A stretch of DNA of 57,677 nucleotides from Bacteroidales bacterium Bact_09 (GTDB lineage: Bacteria > Bacteroidota > Bacteroidia > Bacteroidales > UBA932): contig LUZA01000033.1 in NCBI GenBank assembly GCA_001603455.1, positions 1 to 57,677 on the forward strand, given 5' to 3'. The position numbers and the translations under genes are program-made. Below the pieces are notes generated by a model. It searched no databases, was not told the origin of the DNA, and saw only the letters and a program-made list of their open reading frames with translations. This document shows positions 27,836 through 43,332 of this stretch, piece by piece. How positions within the stretch are numbered: the first letter of the stretch is position 1; each line of letters begins with the position of its first letter.

Positions 27836-27867
27836 CAAATGTAACATATTTATTCGAGTGTGTCCAA
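27836..27867 (-). promoter_or_regulatory. Promoter of the queD-polA operon
   Basis: On the reverse strand TTGG (27867-27864), about 20 bp spacer, TACATTTG (27843-27836), 20 bp before the queD ATG. A good match to the Bacteroidota consensus at both elements. Confidence 0.7.
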
Positions 27868-37540: not shown

Positions 37541-37569
37541 GACCAGCTAATTATTGTTTGACCTGGTCC
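37540..37569. terminator. Hairpin between ABC-F and LuxR genes
   Basis: GGACCAG (37540-37546) pairs with CTGGTCC (37563-37569) across a 16-nt loop. It spans the 10-bp gap between the convergent genes and the last codons of the LuxR gene. It has no proper T tract. Its role as a shared terminator is inferred. Confidence 0.4.
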
Positions 37570-38144
37570 AGGTCTACCAGGTTGTTAAGGATGGCGTAAA
37601 TGGTCAGTCCGGAAGGTGAGTGGATCTGAAGCTTGTTGGCAATATTCTTGCGGTGTGTCATAACTGTATGGATTGACAGAAAAAGTTTTTCGGCTATCTG
37701 TTTATTGGTCAGCCCCTTGGCGACTTCCACTATAACTTCCTTTTCCCTATTGCTCAAATCCTTCGAGGTGTCACTTTTTTCTTTCAGATCAAGCAGTTTC
37801 ACAATTTTATTCCTGATCTGCTCTGCAGAATCGTAAATGGATACCGATTCATCGTAATGCTTCAGTGTATGACGATCTGCCAGGGAATGCAGCAGGGCCA
37901 GTGTTTTCATTTTATTGTTCCCTGTCAGTGTCCTGATCTTTCTGATTATCGCCGGATCTGTAGCAACGGGATTTACAATGAGCAAATCGGGGGTGGGATT
38001 GCTAACATTACAATCAAAGCTGTTTACGTCTGCAATCTCTATTACATAGATATCCAGGATGCCAATGCGTTTGAGAACCTCTATCATACCGGCACGTAAT
38101 ATCTCTGATGGTTCTGCCAGGGCTACGTGGATCTTTCTGCTCAT
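37551..38144 (-). CDS. LuxR-family regulator with a degenerate receiver domain
   Basis: A 197-residue transcription factor. The C terminus (about 130-190) is a LuxR/NarL helix-turn-helix: LSNREKEVIVEVAKGLTNKQIAEKLFLSIHTVMTHRKNIANKL. The N terminus looks like a receiver (IHVALAEPSEILRAGMIEVLKRIG), but the site where a phospho-acceptor Asp is expected reads PDLLIVNPV and the acidic pair after the first strand is AEPSE. Phosphorylation is therefore unlikely. No histidine kinase is adjacent. Its ATG overlaps the hemerythrin stop, so both are made from one message, and the hemerythrin protein is the natural candidate for its signal input. Confidence 0.88.
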   Translation of the reverse strand: MSRKIHVALAEPSEILRAGMIEVLKRIGILDIYVIEIADVNSFDCNVSNPTPDLLIVNPVATDPAIIRKIRTLTGNNKMKTLALLHSLADRHTLKHYDESVSIYDSAEQIRNKIVKLLDLKEKSDTSKDLSNREKEVIVEVAKGLTNKQIAEKLFLSIHTVMTHRKNIANKLQIHSPSGLTIYAILNNLVDLDQVKQ

Positions 38145-38827
38145 TGTTTCCTCAAATTGAATTCCATTTGGGATATCATAGGTACGAACAGGTTATCTTC
38201 AATGAAATTATGGGAGGCCAAGTCCTGTGCACAGACAAAAATGTCAAACAGGACAGCGTTTAGCTCATCTGCGTTCCCGGGAGGATAATATTTAATCAGG
38301 ATGTTCTTCAGTTCCGATAGTTTGGACTCAATACTATCGTGCTGCCGGCAAAAAACCCGGATGCTGTAGTCGCCTCGTTTTTTACCGGTCAACAGCGACC
38401 GGACATATGGGAATACGGTTTCTTCTTCGTAATCCATATGGGTGTGAACCTGTTCCACGTATTCGTCATAGAACCTGATGATGGCACTGACTGCTTTGTC
38501 GTCCTGGGTGCCCAGGGCAGCCAGAAGTTTCTGTCTGATAGAAGGGAGGCGAAAATCCAGAAAGTGGCTGTGGGAATTGTGGAGATATTCCAGCAGGCAT
38601 GGAAGGGATGGCTCTGCCGTTTCATCCCTTATTCCGCTAACCAGCAGGTTTACCACAGCCAGAAAAGTGTTTTCATCCACATGATTCATGTGGCACACCT
38701 GTCGGATGGTTTTTTCTCCAAATCCGGGAGATATTCCAAAACGACTCATGACAAAAAGCATGGGAAAATTGTCACAAATCAGTTCGCTCATACTATCCGA
38801 CGATGTATATTTTCCCAATTTGTACAT
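38141..38827 (-). CDS. Hemerythrin-domain protein, ScdA/RIC-like
   Basis: A 228-residue protein. The C-terminal hemerythrin bundle (about 80-220) has plausible di-iron ligands: HSHFLDFRLP near 91, HTHMDYEEETVFPYV near 132-146, RQHDSIE near 165 and HNFIEDNLFVP near 207. The N-terminal part (about 9-65) resembles the small domain that in ScdA/RIC/YtfE iron-sulfur repair proteins carries a conserved Cys-Cys (FGIDYCCGG). Here the same place reads FGISPGFGE, without cysteine. Family members bind iron, oxygen or nitric oxide. Coupling to the LuxR gene by ATGA suggests a sensor role. A -7-like TATCTTTA lies at 38856-38849 on its strand. Confidence 0.86.
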   Translation of the reverse strand: MYKLGKYTSSDSMSELICDNFPMLFVMSRFGISPGFGEKTIRQVCHMNHVDENTFLAVVNLLVSGIRDETAEPSLPCLLEYLHNSHSHFLDFRLPSIRQKLLAALGTQDDKAVSAIIRFYDEYVEQVHTHMDYEEETVFPYVRSLLTGKKRGDYSIRVFCRQHDSIESKLSELKNILIKYYPPGNADELNAVLFDIFVCAQDLASHNFIEDNLFVPMISQMEFNLRKQ

Positions 38828-38866: not shown

Positions 38867-39676
38867 TCAGGTGAACAGGATCAGGCTCAAAGCCATTATA
38901 GCCATACCCGAGATCAGGCCATAAATGGCAATGTGGTGTTCTCCATATTCGTGAGCTCCCGGCAACAGTTCGTCAATGGATATGAAAACCATGATGCCGG
39001 CTACTATGGCAAAGACACAGCCCATTACTACGGGAGTAAGAAAGGGCATAAGGATTAAATAGGCCAACAAAGCACCCAGCGGTTCTGCCAAAGCCGAAAG
39101 CAGCGTTATTCCAAAAGCTTTTTTCCTGCTTCCTGTGGCGTAATAGATAGGGATAGATACTGCAATTTCTTCAGGAATGTTGTGAATGGCTATAGCCGTG
39201 GCAATGGCGATGCCCAGTGTGGAATTTTCCAGTGCAGCCATAAAAGTAGCGATCCCTTCTGGAAAGTTGTGCACGGCTATGGCAATGGCTGTCATAACGC
39301 CCATTTTCATCAAGCTTGGCTTTTTCATGCCTGTCACGCCCTCGCCCATCTCTTCTACAGAATGTGCTTCGTGAGGGTTCCCGAAGGAAGGCACAAAACG
39401 GTCGATCAGCGCGATGATGGCCATCCCGGTAAAAAAGAAGATCACAGTCAACAAAAGGCCCTGCTTTTCCCCCATGTTTTCTGCCAGGATGGAACGGGCC
39501 TCGGCAAATATTTCCACAAATGCCACATAAATCATAACCCCGGCGGACAATCCCAGCGAGTATGAAAGCAATTTACGGTTTGTCCTTTTGGCAACAAAAG
39601 TTATAGCAAACCCTATCAGTGTAGCCAGACCTGCGAACAAGGCCAACAGAAAAGGCAGAAGAATTCTTGAATCCAT
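38867..39676 (-). CDS. zupT: ZIP-family metal transporter (ZupT)
   Basis: A 269-residue inner-membrane transporter with about eight helices. ZIP metal-site motifs are clear in helices four and five: HNFPEGIATF (about 137-146) and HNIPEEIAVSIPIYYATGS (about 165-183). A short loop, NPHEAHSVEEM, near 99-109 may bind metal. ZupT proteins import zinc and other divalent cations. It is transcribed away from the His-rich/TonB pair, with a palindrome sitting at the -33 position of both promoters, so both directions probably answer to the same metal-dependent regulator. Confidence 0.92.
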   Translation of the reverse strand: MDSRILLPFLLALFAGLATLIGFAITFVAKRTNRKLLSYSLGLSAGVMIYVAFVEIFAEARSILAENMGEKQGLLLTVIFFFTGMAIIALIDRFVPSFGNPHEAHSVEEMGEGVTGMKKPSLMKMGVMTAIAIAVHNFPEGIATFMAALENSTLGIAIATAIAIHNIPEEIAVSIPIYYATGSRKKAFGITLLSALAEPLGALLAYLILMPFLTPVVMGCVFAIVAGIMVFISIDELLPGAHEYGEHHIAIYGLISGMAIMALSLILFT

Positions 39677-39699: not shown

Positions 39700-39707
39700 C
39701 AAAGATA
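39700..39707 (-). promoter_or_regulatory. -7 element of zupT
   Basis: TATCTTTG on the reverse strand, about 24 bp before the zupT ATG. The 20-bp palindrome starts 20 bp further upstream, where the -33 element should be. Confidence 0.7.
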
Positions 39708-39727
39708 CCAAGGATTCATTTCCCGTA

Positions 39728-39747
39728 AATACCCAATTTAGGGTATT
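39728..39747. promoter_or_regulatory. Candidate divergent operator AATACCC-N6-GGGTATT
   Basis: A perfect inverted repeat with 7-bp arms and a 6-bp AT-rich centre. It lies 20 bp from the zupT -7 element on one side and 19 bp from the -7 element of the His-rich gene on the other. Each arm presents TATT at the -33 position of its own promoter. A bound dimer would block both promoters. The geometry suits a Fur-, Zur- or DtxR-type metalloregulator, but no such gene is in the window and the site does not match a consensus I can name. Confidence 0.65.
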
Positions 39748-39766
39748 ATATTTTGTAGAGATGTCT

Positions 39767-39774
39767 TATCTTTG
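39767..39774 (+). promoter_or_regulatory. -7 element of the His-rich/TonB operon
   Basis: TATCTTTG, a perfect TAnnTTTG, 9 bp before the ATG at 39784. The implied leader is very short. Confidence 0.7.
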
Positions 39775-39783
39775 CCGTTCAAT

Positions 39784-40122
39784 ATGATCGCCCCGTCCCG
39801 AAATATTAAGATCACTGCCCTAGTACTGGCGTTCCTCTTTATGGGGTATTATGCAGGCGCAACTTTATTTTATCACAGTCATACCGATAACCGACAGGTT
39901 ATCTCACACTCGCATCCTTATACTTCACGAAATCATACACATACAAGTGAGCAGTTGCAGCTGATTTCTTTTTTATCGGTTGTAATAATGACACTCCCCG
40001 CAGTTATCGTTTTTTGGGGGCTTCTTAACATTTTTACCGGGGTCTTTCTTTTTACCGGTATTCCTTCAATTTATGCTGCAAAGCGTACAGTTCTCAGTCT
40101 GAGAGCTCCTCCCGTAATGTAA
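39784..40122 (+). CDS. Small His-rich membrane protein, probably metal-related
   Basis: The start at 39784 is used because an upstream TTG-initiated frame begins within the -7 element. The 112-residue protein has an N-terminal hydrophobic segment (ITALVLAFLFMGYYAGATLF) and, after it, a His cluster: FYHSHT, VISHSHPY and RNHTHT, about residues 30-55. One or two more hydrophobic stretches follow (ISFLSVVIMTLPAVIVFWGLLNIF). The cluster could bind zinc or another divalent ion on the outer face of the inner membrane. Its place between a ZIP transporter and a TonB receptor supports that. Similar short His-rich proteins before TonB receptors are recalled in other Bacteroidota, but the function is unknown. 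Confidence 0.78.
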   Translation: MIAPSRNIKITALVLAFLFMGYYAGATLFYHSHTDNRQVISHSHPYTSRNHTHTSEQLQLISFLSVVIMTLPAVIVFWGLLNIFTGVFLFTGIPSIYAAKRTVLSLRAPPVM

Positions 40123-40176: not shown

Positions 40177-42495
40177 ATGAAAAAAATAGTATTGACTTTA
40201 TTGCTGCTTGTTACTGTATTTACTGTATCCGATGCGCAGCAAAGACAACATAGAAAAAGAGAAAGAAGGGGAGCTATCCTTACAGGATACATAACAGATG
40301 CTTCTACCGGTGACAGCCTGGGATATGCTTCCGTAGTGCTGCACGGTACTACGTTAATGGCCATAGCCAACGATTTCGGCTATTACAGACTGGATCATAT
40401 TCCGGAAGGATTTCACACTATAAGGGTTTCACTGGCAGGGTACAGTCCTGCTTCTTTTTCCGTTGAGCTAAAAGAGGGTGAAATGGCTATACAGGATATA
40501 AAACTGGTTCCCGATGTGGTCGCATTGGACCAGATAGTCATTTCTGCCAGCAGGACAGAAGTTGTCCGGCGTAACAGTCCCGGTTTGGTAAATGTTATGA
40601 CCTCAGGTCTCATAGAACAGACCAATGCCTTTTGCCTTGCCGAGGCACTGCCTTTTCAGCCTGGTGTGCGGGTTGAGAACCAATGCCAAAATTGCGGATT
40701 CAACCAGGTCAGGATCAACGGGCTGGATGGTCATTATTCGCAGATCCTGATAGATTCCCGTCCGGTCTTCTCGGCTTTGGCTGGGGTGTATGGTCTGGAG
40801 CAGATCCCGGCCAATATGATAGACCGTGTGGAGGTCTTGCGTGGGGGAGGCTCGGCTCTGTATGGATCTTCGGCCATCGGGGGTACCATCAATATCATTA
40901 CGCGTGATCCCGTAACAAACGATGCGGAAGTGGCGCATACGATTACTACTATTGGAGGAGGGAAAGCATGGGATAACAACACGACTTTTAATACTTCATT
41001 GGTTACCGGGAACGGAAAAGCAGGTTTTTTGGCATACGGTCAAAAACGTTCACGGCAGGGATATGATCACACTGGAGACGGTTTTACCGAGTTGCCGGAG
41101 ATACGGAGTAATACCATAGGATTTCGCACCAATTTTAAGATGGGTCTAAATGCAAAACTTGCTCTTCAATATCATGGAATAGGAGAATACAGACGGGGAG
41201 GAAATAAGCTGGAGCGTCCGCCTCATGAAGCGGATATCGCTGAACAGCTTGAACATCAGATCCACGGAGGAGGCGTTTCTTATGATCTGTTTTCTTCTGA
41301 TTATAGCAACCGACTGAATCTGTTTACATCTATGCAATATATTGACCGCAAGAGCTATTACGGAGCAGGACAGGATCCCCAGGCTTACGGGACCACAAAA
41401 GATATGACTGTAGTGTCCGGGATACAGTATACACATAAATGGGAGCGTTTATGGTTTATGCCTGCTGAATTTGTTTCGGGCATGGAGTATAATTACAACG
41501 GATTGTATGACCGTTATTTGGGATATGACTCGGAAACACATCAGATCATTCATGATGTCAGTCTTTATGTTCAGAACGAATGGCGTAACGACAGGTGGGG
41601 ATTTCTGGCAGGAGTCAGGGCAGATAAGCATAATCTGATAGATCACGTGATCTTCTCGCCCCGGGTAAATGTGCGATTTAATCCTACACGTAATGTGAAT
41701 TTCAGGACTTCTTATTCCACGGGATTTCGTGCGCCCCAGGCATTCGACGAAGATTTTCACGTTGCGGTTGTTGGAGGAGACCGTGTGGTAACCGTCCTGG
41801 CGGATGATCTGAAAGAAGAAAAATCCGGAAGTTTTAGTTTCTCTGCAGACCTCTACCATTCTTTTGGTAAGGTACAGACCAATCTTATAGTGGAGTTGTT
41901 CCACAACCGGCTGCGGGATGTGTTTGCGTTGAGGATGCTGGATCATAAAGATAAAGACGGGAACAGAGTATTGGAACGTTATAATGGTTCCGGGGCTGTT
42001 GTCAAGGGAATGAATGTGGAGGGGAAAGCTATTTTGTCCAGCAGTTTCCAGGTTCAGGCAGGAATCACTTATCAGAAAAGTACGTATATAGAGCCGGAAC
42101 AGTGGAGTGAGAATCCTTCGGTTGCACCGGTAACGCGTATATTCCGTTGTCCGGATTTATACGGATACCTTACTTCAACTTTGACCTTACCGGGTAATTT
42201 TAACGTATCTGTATCCGGAAAATATACAGGTTCTATGATCGTACAACACTTCGTGGGTTCGGGCACGTCAGTGGATGAAGCGGTGACTACGCCGTCGTTT
42301 TTGGATATGGATCTAAGGCTTGTATATGATATTAGGATCAACAGAAGAACGGGGGCTCAGATCAATGCCGGGATTAAAAACGTGTTCGATTCGTACCAGA
42401 GTGATTTTGACAAGGGACCTGAAAGAGACTCGGGCTATGTCTACGGGCCTATGAAGCCTCGTAATTACTTTGTGGGATTGAAATTCAGTTTTTAG
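40177..42495 (+). CDS. TonB-dependent outer-membrane receptor
   Basis: A 772-residue receptor. It has a signal peptide (MKKIVLTLLLLVTVFTVSDA), a carboxypeptidase-regulatory-like domain (GAILTGYITDASTGDSLGYASVVLHGTTLMAIANDFGYYRL, about 31-71), a plug (about 120-245, with VRINGLDGHYSQILIDSRPVF and VEVLRGGGSALYGSSAIGGTINIITR) and a beta-barrel ending FVGLKFSF with the usual terminal Phe. A CQNC pair sits in the plug near residue 169. There is no SusD partner, so this is not a Sus-type glycan receptor. Lying 54 bp after the His-rich gene and under the same promoter, it more likely takes up a metal or metal complex. Confidence 0.92.
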   Translation: MKKIVLTLLLLVTVFTVSDAQQRQHRKRERRGAILTGYITDASTGDSLGYASVVLHGTTLMAIANDFGYYRLDHIPEGFHTIRVSLAGYSPASFSVELKEGEMAIQDIKLVPDVVALDQIVISASRTEVVRRNSPGLVNVMTSGLIEQTNAFCLAEALPFQPGVRVENQCQNCGFNQVRINGLDGHYSQILIDSRPVFSALAGVYGLEQIPANMIDRVEVLRGGGSALYGSSAIGGTINIITRDPVTNDAEVAHTITTIGGGKAWDNNTTFNTSLVTGNGKAGFLAYGQKRSRQGYDHTGDGFTELPEIRSNTIGFRTNFKMGLNAKLALQYHGIGEYRRGGNKLERPPHEADIAEQLEHQIHGGGVSYDLFSSDYSNRLNLFTSMQYIDRKSYYGAGQDPQAYGTTKDMTVVSGIQYTHKWERLWFMPAEFVSGMEYNYNGLYDRYLGYDSETHQIIHDVSLYVQNEWRNDRWGFLAGVRADKHNLIDHVIFSPRVNVRFNPTRNVNFRTSYSTGFRAPQAFDEDFHVAVVGGDRVVTVLADDLKEEKSGSFSFSADLYHSFGKVQTNLIVELFHNRLRDVFALRMLDHKDKDGNRVLERYNGSGAVVKGMNVEGKAILSSSFQVQAGITYQKSTYIEPEQWSENPSVAPVTRIFRCPDLYGYLTSTLTLPGNFNVSVSGKYTGSMIVQHFVGSGTSVDEAVTTPSFLDMDLRLVYDIRINRRTGAQINAGIKNVFDSYQSDFDKGPERDSGYVYGPMKPRNYFVGLKFSF

Positions 42496-42819: not shown

Positions 42820-43332
42820 ATGGGAAAAGAAGCAATTAAAGTATCATCAGTAGATGTTGATAAACTCATTGAAATGTTGAACGCTGCCCTTTCGGAAGAA
42901 TGGCTGGCATATTACCAATACTGGATCGGTGCCAGGTTGATGGAAGGTCCCATGAGGAGTGAGGTGGAACCTGAATTGCTGGTACATGCCGATGAAGAAC
43001 TGGGCCATGCCGTTTTGGTGGTGGATCGGATCATTCAACTGGGTGGTACTCCCGTGATCAATCCAAAGGACTGGACAAAACATGCCCGCTGTGCTTACGA
43101 GGAACCTTCCGATCCTTACATTGAAAGGATCCTGGAACAAAATTTAGCAGGAGAGAGATGTGCCATCAAAAGGTACCAGGAGATCGCAGACTTTACGGCA
43201 GGAAAAGATCACGCTACACACCAGATGGCGGTGCAGATCCTGAACGATGAGCTTGAACACGAAAACGACATCGAAGACTGGATCACAGACCTGGAGCGGA
43301 TGAAGGAAGAATGGAGAAAGATCAGATTGTGA
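42820..43332 (+). CDS. Dps-like ferritin (DPSL/thioferritin)
   Basis: This 170-residue four-helix protein resembles the Dps-like (DPSL) ferritins described from Bacteroides fragilis and archaea. The ferroxidase residues are visible in ALSEEWLAYYQYW (about 25-37), HADEELGH (about 55-62) and ILNDELEHENDIEDW (about 140-154). The two cysteines that mark the thioferritin subgroup are present: Cys91 in HARCAYEEP and Cys114 in GERCAIKRY. Such proteins form 12-subunit cages that use peroxide to oxidise and store iron. A partial -7 element TATCTTG lies at 42778-42784. It is transcribed divergently from tRNA-Leu. Confidence 0.88.
   Translation: MGKEAIKVSSVDVDKLIEMLNAALSEEWLAYYQYWIGARLMEGPMRSEVEPELLVHADEELGHAVLVVDRIIQLGGTPVINPKDWTKHARCAYEEPSDPYIERILEQNLAGERCAIKRYQEIADFTAGKDHATHQMAVQILNDELEHENDIEDWITDLERMKEEWRKIRL

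Follow-up and report, generated by a model that had tools for sequence, protein, structure and literature searches.

A conserved palindrome between divergent zupT and TonB-receptor operons is a predicted operator of a CdhR-type regulator in Bacteroidales

The window, a stretch of 57,677 nucleotides from Bacteroidales bacterium Bact_09 (contig LUZA01000033.1), contains two divergent operons with a 20-bp palindrome between their promoters (Table 1). The leftward operon begins with zupT, which is followed after 39 bp by a gene for a hemerythrin-domain protein; the stop of this second gene is overlapped by 4 bp by the gene of a LuxR-type protein. The zupT product scores above the NCBIfam cut-off for ZupT equivalogs, a match that does not tell which metal is transported. 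The rightward operon consists of a gene for a small His-rich membrane protein and a TonB-dependent receptor gene. The listed open reading frame of the His-rich protein begins with a TTG at 39772, within the promoter, and the ATG at 39784 is the likelier start. Just downstream of the TonB operon lies a Dps/ferritin-like gene (42820-43332), so that a gene for iron storage is found close to the uptake genes.

Table 1. Features of the divergent zupT and His-rich/TonB operons in the window
Feature	Coordinates	Strand	Remarks
CdhR-like LuxR/NarL-type regulator	37551..38144	-	Receiver-like fold and GerE domain; PF00196, 3.9e-18
YtfE-like hemerythrin-domain protein, putative di-iron sensor	38141..38827	-	PF01814; YtfE in PDB, E ~0.007
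zupT, metal importer of the ZIP family; opens the operon	38867..39676	-	NF003243, 358.2 bits (cut-off 252); PF02535
-7 element TATCTTTG of the zupT operon	39700..39707	-	20 bp from the palindrome; read as reverse complement
Palindrome AATACCC-N6-GGGTATT (AATACCCAATTTAGGGTATT)	39728..39747		20 bp; predicted CdhR-type operator (direct reading, conservation, motif recurrence)
-7 element TATCTTTG of the His-rich/TonB operon	39767..39774	+	19 bp from the palindrome
Small His-rich membrane protein	39784..40122	+	Without match in Pfam and NCBIfam
TonB-dependent receptor; CarboxypepD_reg domain, CQNC plug motif	40177..42495	+	PF00593, PF07715, PF13715; orthologues in the family

Bacteroidota promoters use TAnnTTTG as -7 element. 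If the two elements in Table 1 are taken as such, the centre of the palindrome would be located near position -41 of both promoters and the near arm would cover -33 in each direction. The first-pass annotation had described the palindrome together with both -7 elements and their distances, and direct reading of the window confirmed this description. A second divergent pair of TAnnTTTG elements, 61 bp apart, is present at position 27836 of the window, and no match to the palindrome was found near it even when three mismatches were allowed.

The palindrome alone is not beyond chance. The window contains 59 inverted repeats with 7-bp arms and a spacer of 0-10 nucleotides, and AATACCC-N6-GGGTATT is one of six perfect 7-6-7 inverted repeats; it is set apart by its position and its conservation. 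The exact sequence occurs once in the 1.93-Mb genome. A search of the genome for the same 20-bp pattern before other metal genes had been suggested: nine of the ten listed matches with one mismatch are located within open reading frames, and the tenth (L043) is intergenic with no TANNTTTG within 40 bp. The palindrome can alternatively be laid out as two heptamers separated by 2 bp (TACCCAA-TT-TAGGGTA).

Conservation among relatives had been named as a check for this site, and the palindrome was indeed found to be kept. The genus comprises 13 genomes, and the start of the zupT operon could be tested in nine of them (in G095 and G128 it is cut by contig ends). A matrix scan identified a site before the cdhR-linked zupT operon of all nine genomes with a readable operon start, and TATCTTTG or TACCTTTG is located 20-21 bp beyond the 20-mer at every one of these loci. 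The exact pattern AATACC-N8-GGTATT is present in nine of the 13 genomes, seven of which carry a copy upstream of zupT (the genome of the window, G148, G083, G057, G021, G106 and G138); the other five matches to this pattern in the genus lie within open reading frames (four) or between two unrelated ones (L035). Neither a match to the CdhR-type hemerythrin nor a site was found in G071 and G149.

The divergent arrangement is kept as well. In G106, a divergent His-rich/TonB operon and the complete double-promoter layout are found as in the window, in support of the earlier proposal of one shared site at divergent promoters of inner- and outer-membrane metal-uptake operons. The double promoter is also kept in G021, where no His-rich/TonB operon was found in the ~1.3 kb examined beyond the site; TATCTTTG is present in both genomes at the place equivalent to the forward -7 element of the window. 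In G040, a gene that was named by reading as cation-diffusion-facilitator-like (CDF) is located between the site and zupT. Across the family, 22 of 25 loci were read as having a small open reading frame like the His-rich gene in front of the TonB receptor (seen in the window and L002-L026), and a site above 12 bits is found upstream of five of the 25 (the window, G106, L004, L014 and L026) and not of the other 20. A different arrangement in a genome of another genus (G037:C26:71743-75266), in which the receptor orthologue lies directly upstream of the hemerythrin and cdhR genes on the same strand, is an independent link of this TonB receptor to a CdhR-type regulator.

Contrary to the earlier statement that no regulator gene is nearby and that control is exerted in trans, the zupT operon includes a gene for a LuxR/NarL-type regulator, which is its third and stands behind the hemerythrin gene. 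The CdhR-type hemerythrin was found in 11 of the 13 genomes of the genus, and in seven of these 11 it is fused to a GerE domain in frames of 316-333 amino acids. The same fusion occurs in L272 and in L313, L316 and L325 of another genus. Six residues at di-iron ligand positions (H86, H130, E134, H163, H206 and E210) do not vary among the 13 hemerythrins compared; five of them were aligned to YtfE in the PDB, and H86, which lies outside this alignment, was placed by eye. For YtfE, the available text of the structural report gives H84, H129, E133, H160, H204 and E208 as di-iron ligands (PMC9268430).

The LuxR-type protein was predicted to combine a receiver-like fold with a GerE domain (pLDDT 83), and Foldseek matched it to VraR, LiaR and NarL (4gvp, 5hev and 1rnl) with E values of 1e-9 to 3e-7 and a TM score of ~0.44-0.48 over the whole chain. 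The phospho-acceptor aspartate is missing: its place at the end of strand 3 is occupied by N58-P59, which is nearly invariant in 12 sequences. This Asn-Pro does not fit a phosphorylated two-component response regulator, and the hemerythrin partner may take over the role of the kinase for this protein.

Named genome records were scanned with a CdhR alignment and the best 80 of 509 relatives were taken as loci; among these 80, 77 contain a hemerythrin match, mostly starting ~680-750 bp upstream. Motif matches were scored with a matrix that had been trained on 37 distinct sites, none of them from the tested loci, and 78 of the 80 loci could be scored (L117 and L189 were left out because of too little upstream DNA). 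In 43 of these 78 the best match of the locus fell 640-1150 bp before the cdhR match, which is where the hemerythrin gene begins, compared to 3.3 expected and 2-8 obtained with ten column-shuffled matrices. Within this sample of the best 80, all 43 belong to the 76 scored loci with a hemerythrin match and none to the two without, and the best match of the remaining 35 lies elsewhere than upstream of the pair. The 43 include two Bacteroides fragilis genomes (L137 and L142). No TAnnTTTG is present within 70 bp of the site in 20 of the 43 loci; the other 23 carry 26 such elements, 17 of which are located 20-22 bp beyond the site.

The heptamer consensus of NarL is TACYYMT. In 11 of 34 cdhR-upstream sites one arm or both agree with it, and the arms of the window palindrome, TACCCAA and TACCCTA, are one and two letters off. 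The HmuY loci, which served as a test with a known target, showed a site with promoter before the operon in one of 30 cases (L201); this is a weak test, the gene being operon-internal in most of them.

A wider search with the pattern ATACC-N8-GGTAT-N18..23-TANNTTTG matched 101 of the 398 family genomes, some genera having several matches per genome, whereas the reversed-pattern control gave one match each in two of the 398 (G050 and G143). This pattern turned out to cover two motif classes. Among the matches listed, 92 sites were read in 90 loci (L087-L116 and L273-L332), and after removal of ten without a downstream open reading frame, 82 remained. Class A, defined as all sites that do not belong to the second class and including the kind found in the window, accounts for 57 of the 82 among the matches listed. 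The first gene after these 57 sites is FeoB in 20 cases, FeoA in 19, a TonB plug protein in ten and hemerythrin-GerE in five; the feoAB sites of genus g6 are near copies and thus not independent. Cys/Met enzymes (2), P-type ATPases (2) and integrases (2) are among the other first genes. Two class A sites of genus g4 (L320 and L324) stand before a P-type metal ATPase whose N-terminus is rich in His, possibly an efflux member of the regulon.

The second class, ATACCAY-N4-RTGGTAT, accounts for 25 of the 82 first genes among the matches listed, in a split that was made after seeing the data. It has the same promoter spacing and is found at L276-L312 and others in genera g14, g20, g21 and g25. Domain scans, which covered 21 of the 25 proteins (the short open reading frames L296, L305, L307 and L308 were left out), showed that it precedes genes for cysteine synthase, Cys/Met PLP-enzymes, thioredoxin-like proteins and TonB proteins, among others. 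It probably belongs to another regulator, as if a sulfur/redox regulon used a look-alike operator, and the reading of the family-wide motif as one single regulon was partly rejected because this class sits before cysteine, methionine and redox genes. In individual species, sites were found before TonB-receptor-like and other envelope-protein genes in B. fragilis (with one control match in the same genome), before feoAB-like and cysK-like genes in Parabacteroides massiliensis, and before a pyruvate-formate-lyase-like gene and a TetR-type gene in B. caecigallinarum; the gene names in all three were taken from the translations. In the available part of a study on B. thetaiotaomicron, pflA/pflB appear in an iron-dependent table with ratios of 2.6-8.3 (PMC10434189).

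The transporter most often found behind the motif elsewhere, FeoB, was not found in most of the genus, and the site-bearing operon there contains a ZIP transporter. A true FeoB match (E 2e-62) was detected in G040 only. The remaining 12 of the 13 genomes gave no FeoB match; their best matches had E values of 4e-19 to 5e-17, and the three that were read (in G000, G117 and G021) proved to be Der-like GTPases that contain two G domains. Eight of these 12 genomes are at least 92% complete and four 79-86%. In G040, a TonB receptor gene precedes feoAB; within this 9-kb stretch the motif scores best where that operon starts, with a degenerate match of 8.4 bits. Since no FeoB match was found in 12 of the 13 genomes, the ZIP transporter may replace FeoB, importing ferrous iron in its place.

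Taken together, we consider it likely that the palindrome is an autoregulated CdhR-type operator through which both operons are switched on in low iron, probably by activation. A GerE dimer of the CdhR-like protein would occupy the 20-bp site, whose centre lies near -41 in either promoter; low iron would be sensed, probably via the di-iron site of the hemerythrin. Binding would then turn on the zupT-hemerythrin-cdhR operon, which amounts to autoregulation, and from the same operator the His-rich/TonB-receptor operon. With iron as both signal and presumed substrate, the two operons together would carry the metal across the outer and inner membranes, with the ZIP protein in the place of FeoB.

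The earlier proposal was that one binding event shuts both operons. Its shared site stands; shut-off is less likely, since the position of the site suits a class-II activator and the homologue CdhR is a reported activator of the hmu genes, according to the available text of the report (PMC10101095). The narrow distance to the -7 element would also favour contact with the polymerase over simple blocking. CdhR suppresses mfa1 and luxS, as stated in the accessible part of another study (PMC5329018), and with activation of hmu on the one hand and suppression of these genes on the other it may act both ways. A repressor bound at the same place is the less likely option.

Going further, we tentatively suggest, with somewhat less than even confidence, that a Bacteroidales-wide class of regulators senses iron with the di-iron centre of the hemerythrin and switches on iron uptake through a defined 20-bp operator. 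The genus would have lost FeoB, after which a ZIP transporter would have been recruited to the operon of the regulator as new ferrous-iron importer, with one operator in common with the outer-membrane TonB system.

A Fur-like or other iron-responsive regulator might instead bind the palindrome and repress both operons, with cdhR as a target and not as the reader of the site. Sites upstream of cdhR would be expected in either case, since cdhR operons are induced by low iron. The distribution of the hemerythrin argues for the CdhR-like protein: a CdhR-type hemerythrin is present in 95 of the 101 site-positive family genomes versus 192 of the 297 site-negative ones (Fisher p 6e-10), in a comparison of tables by eye that pools the two motif classes, treats genomes that are not phylogenetically independent and uses a profile covering the hemerythrin part only. 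Six of the 101 are without a detected CdhR-type hemerythrin, which would fit a different reader; G068, G126, G212 and G248 among them are 72-83% complete, G191 88% and G074 96%. In genus g22 most genomes have the CdhR-type hemerythrin and no site was found by the strict pattern. The regulator gene furthermore sits inside the operon it would control, and the motif can be arranged as a 7-2-7 dimer site of GerE-type proteins, with a partial fit to the heptamer consensus. On this evidence we regard a Fur-like reader as unlikely.

That a trans-acting repressor responding to zinc or another divalent metal controls ZupT and the TonB receptor jointly, along the lines of the trans-acting metalloregulator of the first-pass annotation, is highly improbable. 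ZupT and the receptor are plausible as zinc genes, and deletion of zntR in Riemerella raises the expression of one ZIP gene together with several genes for TonB-dependent transporters, zupT being named as inhibited by ZntR in the available text (PMC11960050). The motif, however, does not track zupT, and zinc regulation tied to zupT itself was rejected as main reading. A zupT match is present in 107 of 149 family genomes, and the best 30 loci were taken, nine from the genus and 21 from other genera. None of these 21 loci among the best 30 reaches 12 bits anywhere (seven of them are cut by a contig end). The genus also has 11 second copies of zupT, ten with at most 9.3 bits and one (L265) that is a fair match with 14.6 bits. 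Iron fits better than zinc because the motif is absent from these 21 loci and from ten of the 11 second copies and precedes feoAB elsewhere. Of the proposed metal switch, the shared site before uptake operons remains and zinc becomes less likely, the motif going with feoAB and cdhR.

An origin of the palindrome by chance, or its explanation as no more than a shape of the two -33 regions, can practically be dismissed in spite of the other perfect repeats in the window, given its conservation in the genus, its occurrence in the family relative to the reversed-pattern control (101 versus two of 398 genomes) and its recurrence before cdhR pairs relative to shuffled matrices (43 versus 2-8 of 78 loci).

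In the accessible part of a recent study, knowledge on the iron stimulon of Bacteroidetes is called sparse and the mechanism of regulation by CdhR unclear (PMC10434189). A CdhR binding motif was not found in the open-access literature searched; the original CdhR papers may contain one. The concrete 20-bp predicted operator for the hemerythrin-CdhR pair makes this regulator directly testable in gut Bacteroides. If a ZIP transporter has indeed taken over from FeoB while the regulator stayed the same, this would clearly exemplify a regulon that is the same in its role and changed in its transporter.

The predicted system resembles several known ones in part. The regulator shares the receiver-like fold and the GerE domain with NarL/FixJ-type regulators such as NarL, VraR and LiaR, and the palindrome can be laid out as heptamers 2 bp apart; it differs from them by the missing phospho-acceptor aspartate, and TACYYMT fits only part of the sites. 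Like YtfE/RIC, the hemerythrin domain of the window has six residues at di-iron ligand positions; unlike YtfE/RIC, it scores 50.5 bits against an NCBIfam RIC cut-off of 204.7 bits and is genetically tied to a DNA-binding protein. The closest parallels are the hemerythrin-CdhR pairs PG1236-PG1237 of Porphyromonas gingivalis and BT0519-0520 of Bacteroides thetaiotaomicron, both induced by low iron, and the fused pair of Prevotella intermedia, as far as they are described in the available text (PMC10434189). By domain order and this published description, the pair of the window is likened to PG1236-1237 and BT0519-0520: a hemerythrin gene stands directly before, or is fused to, that of a LuxR-type regulator. 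The published pairs are tied to iron and to a TonB-receptor operon, and in the window a comparable tie would be given by the shared site in front of a TonB operon. In contrast to these pairs, the pair of the window is part of a zupT operon and faces the His-rich/TonB operon across one single site.
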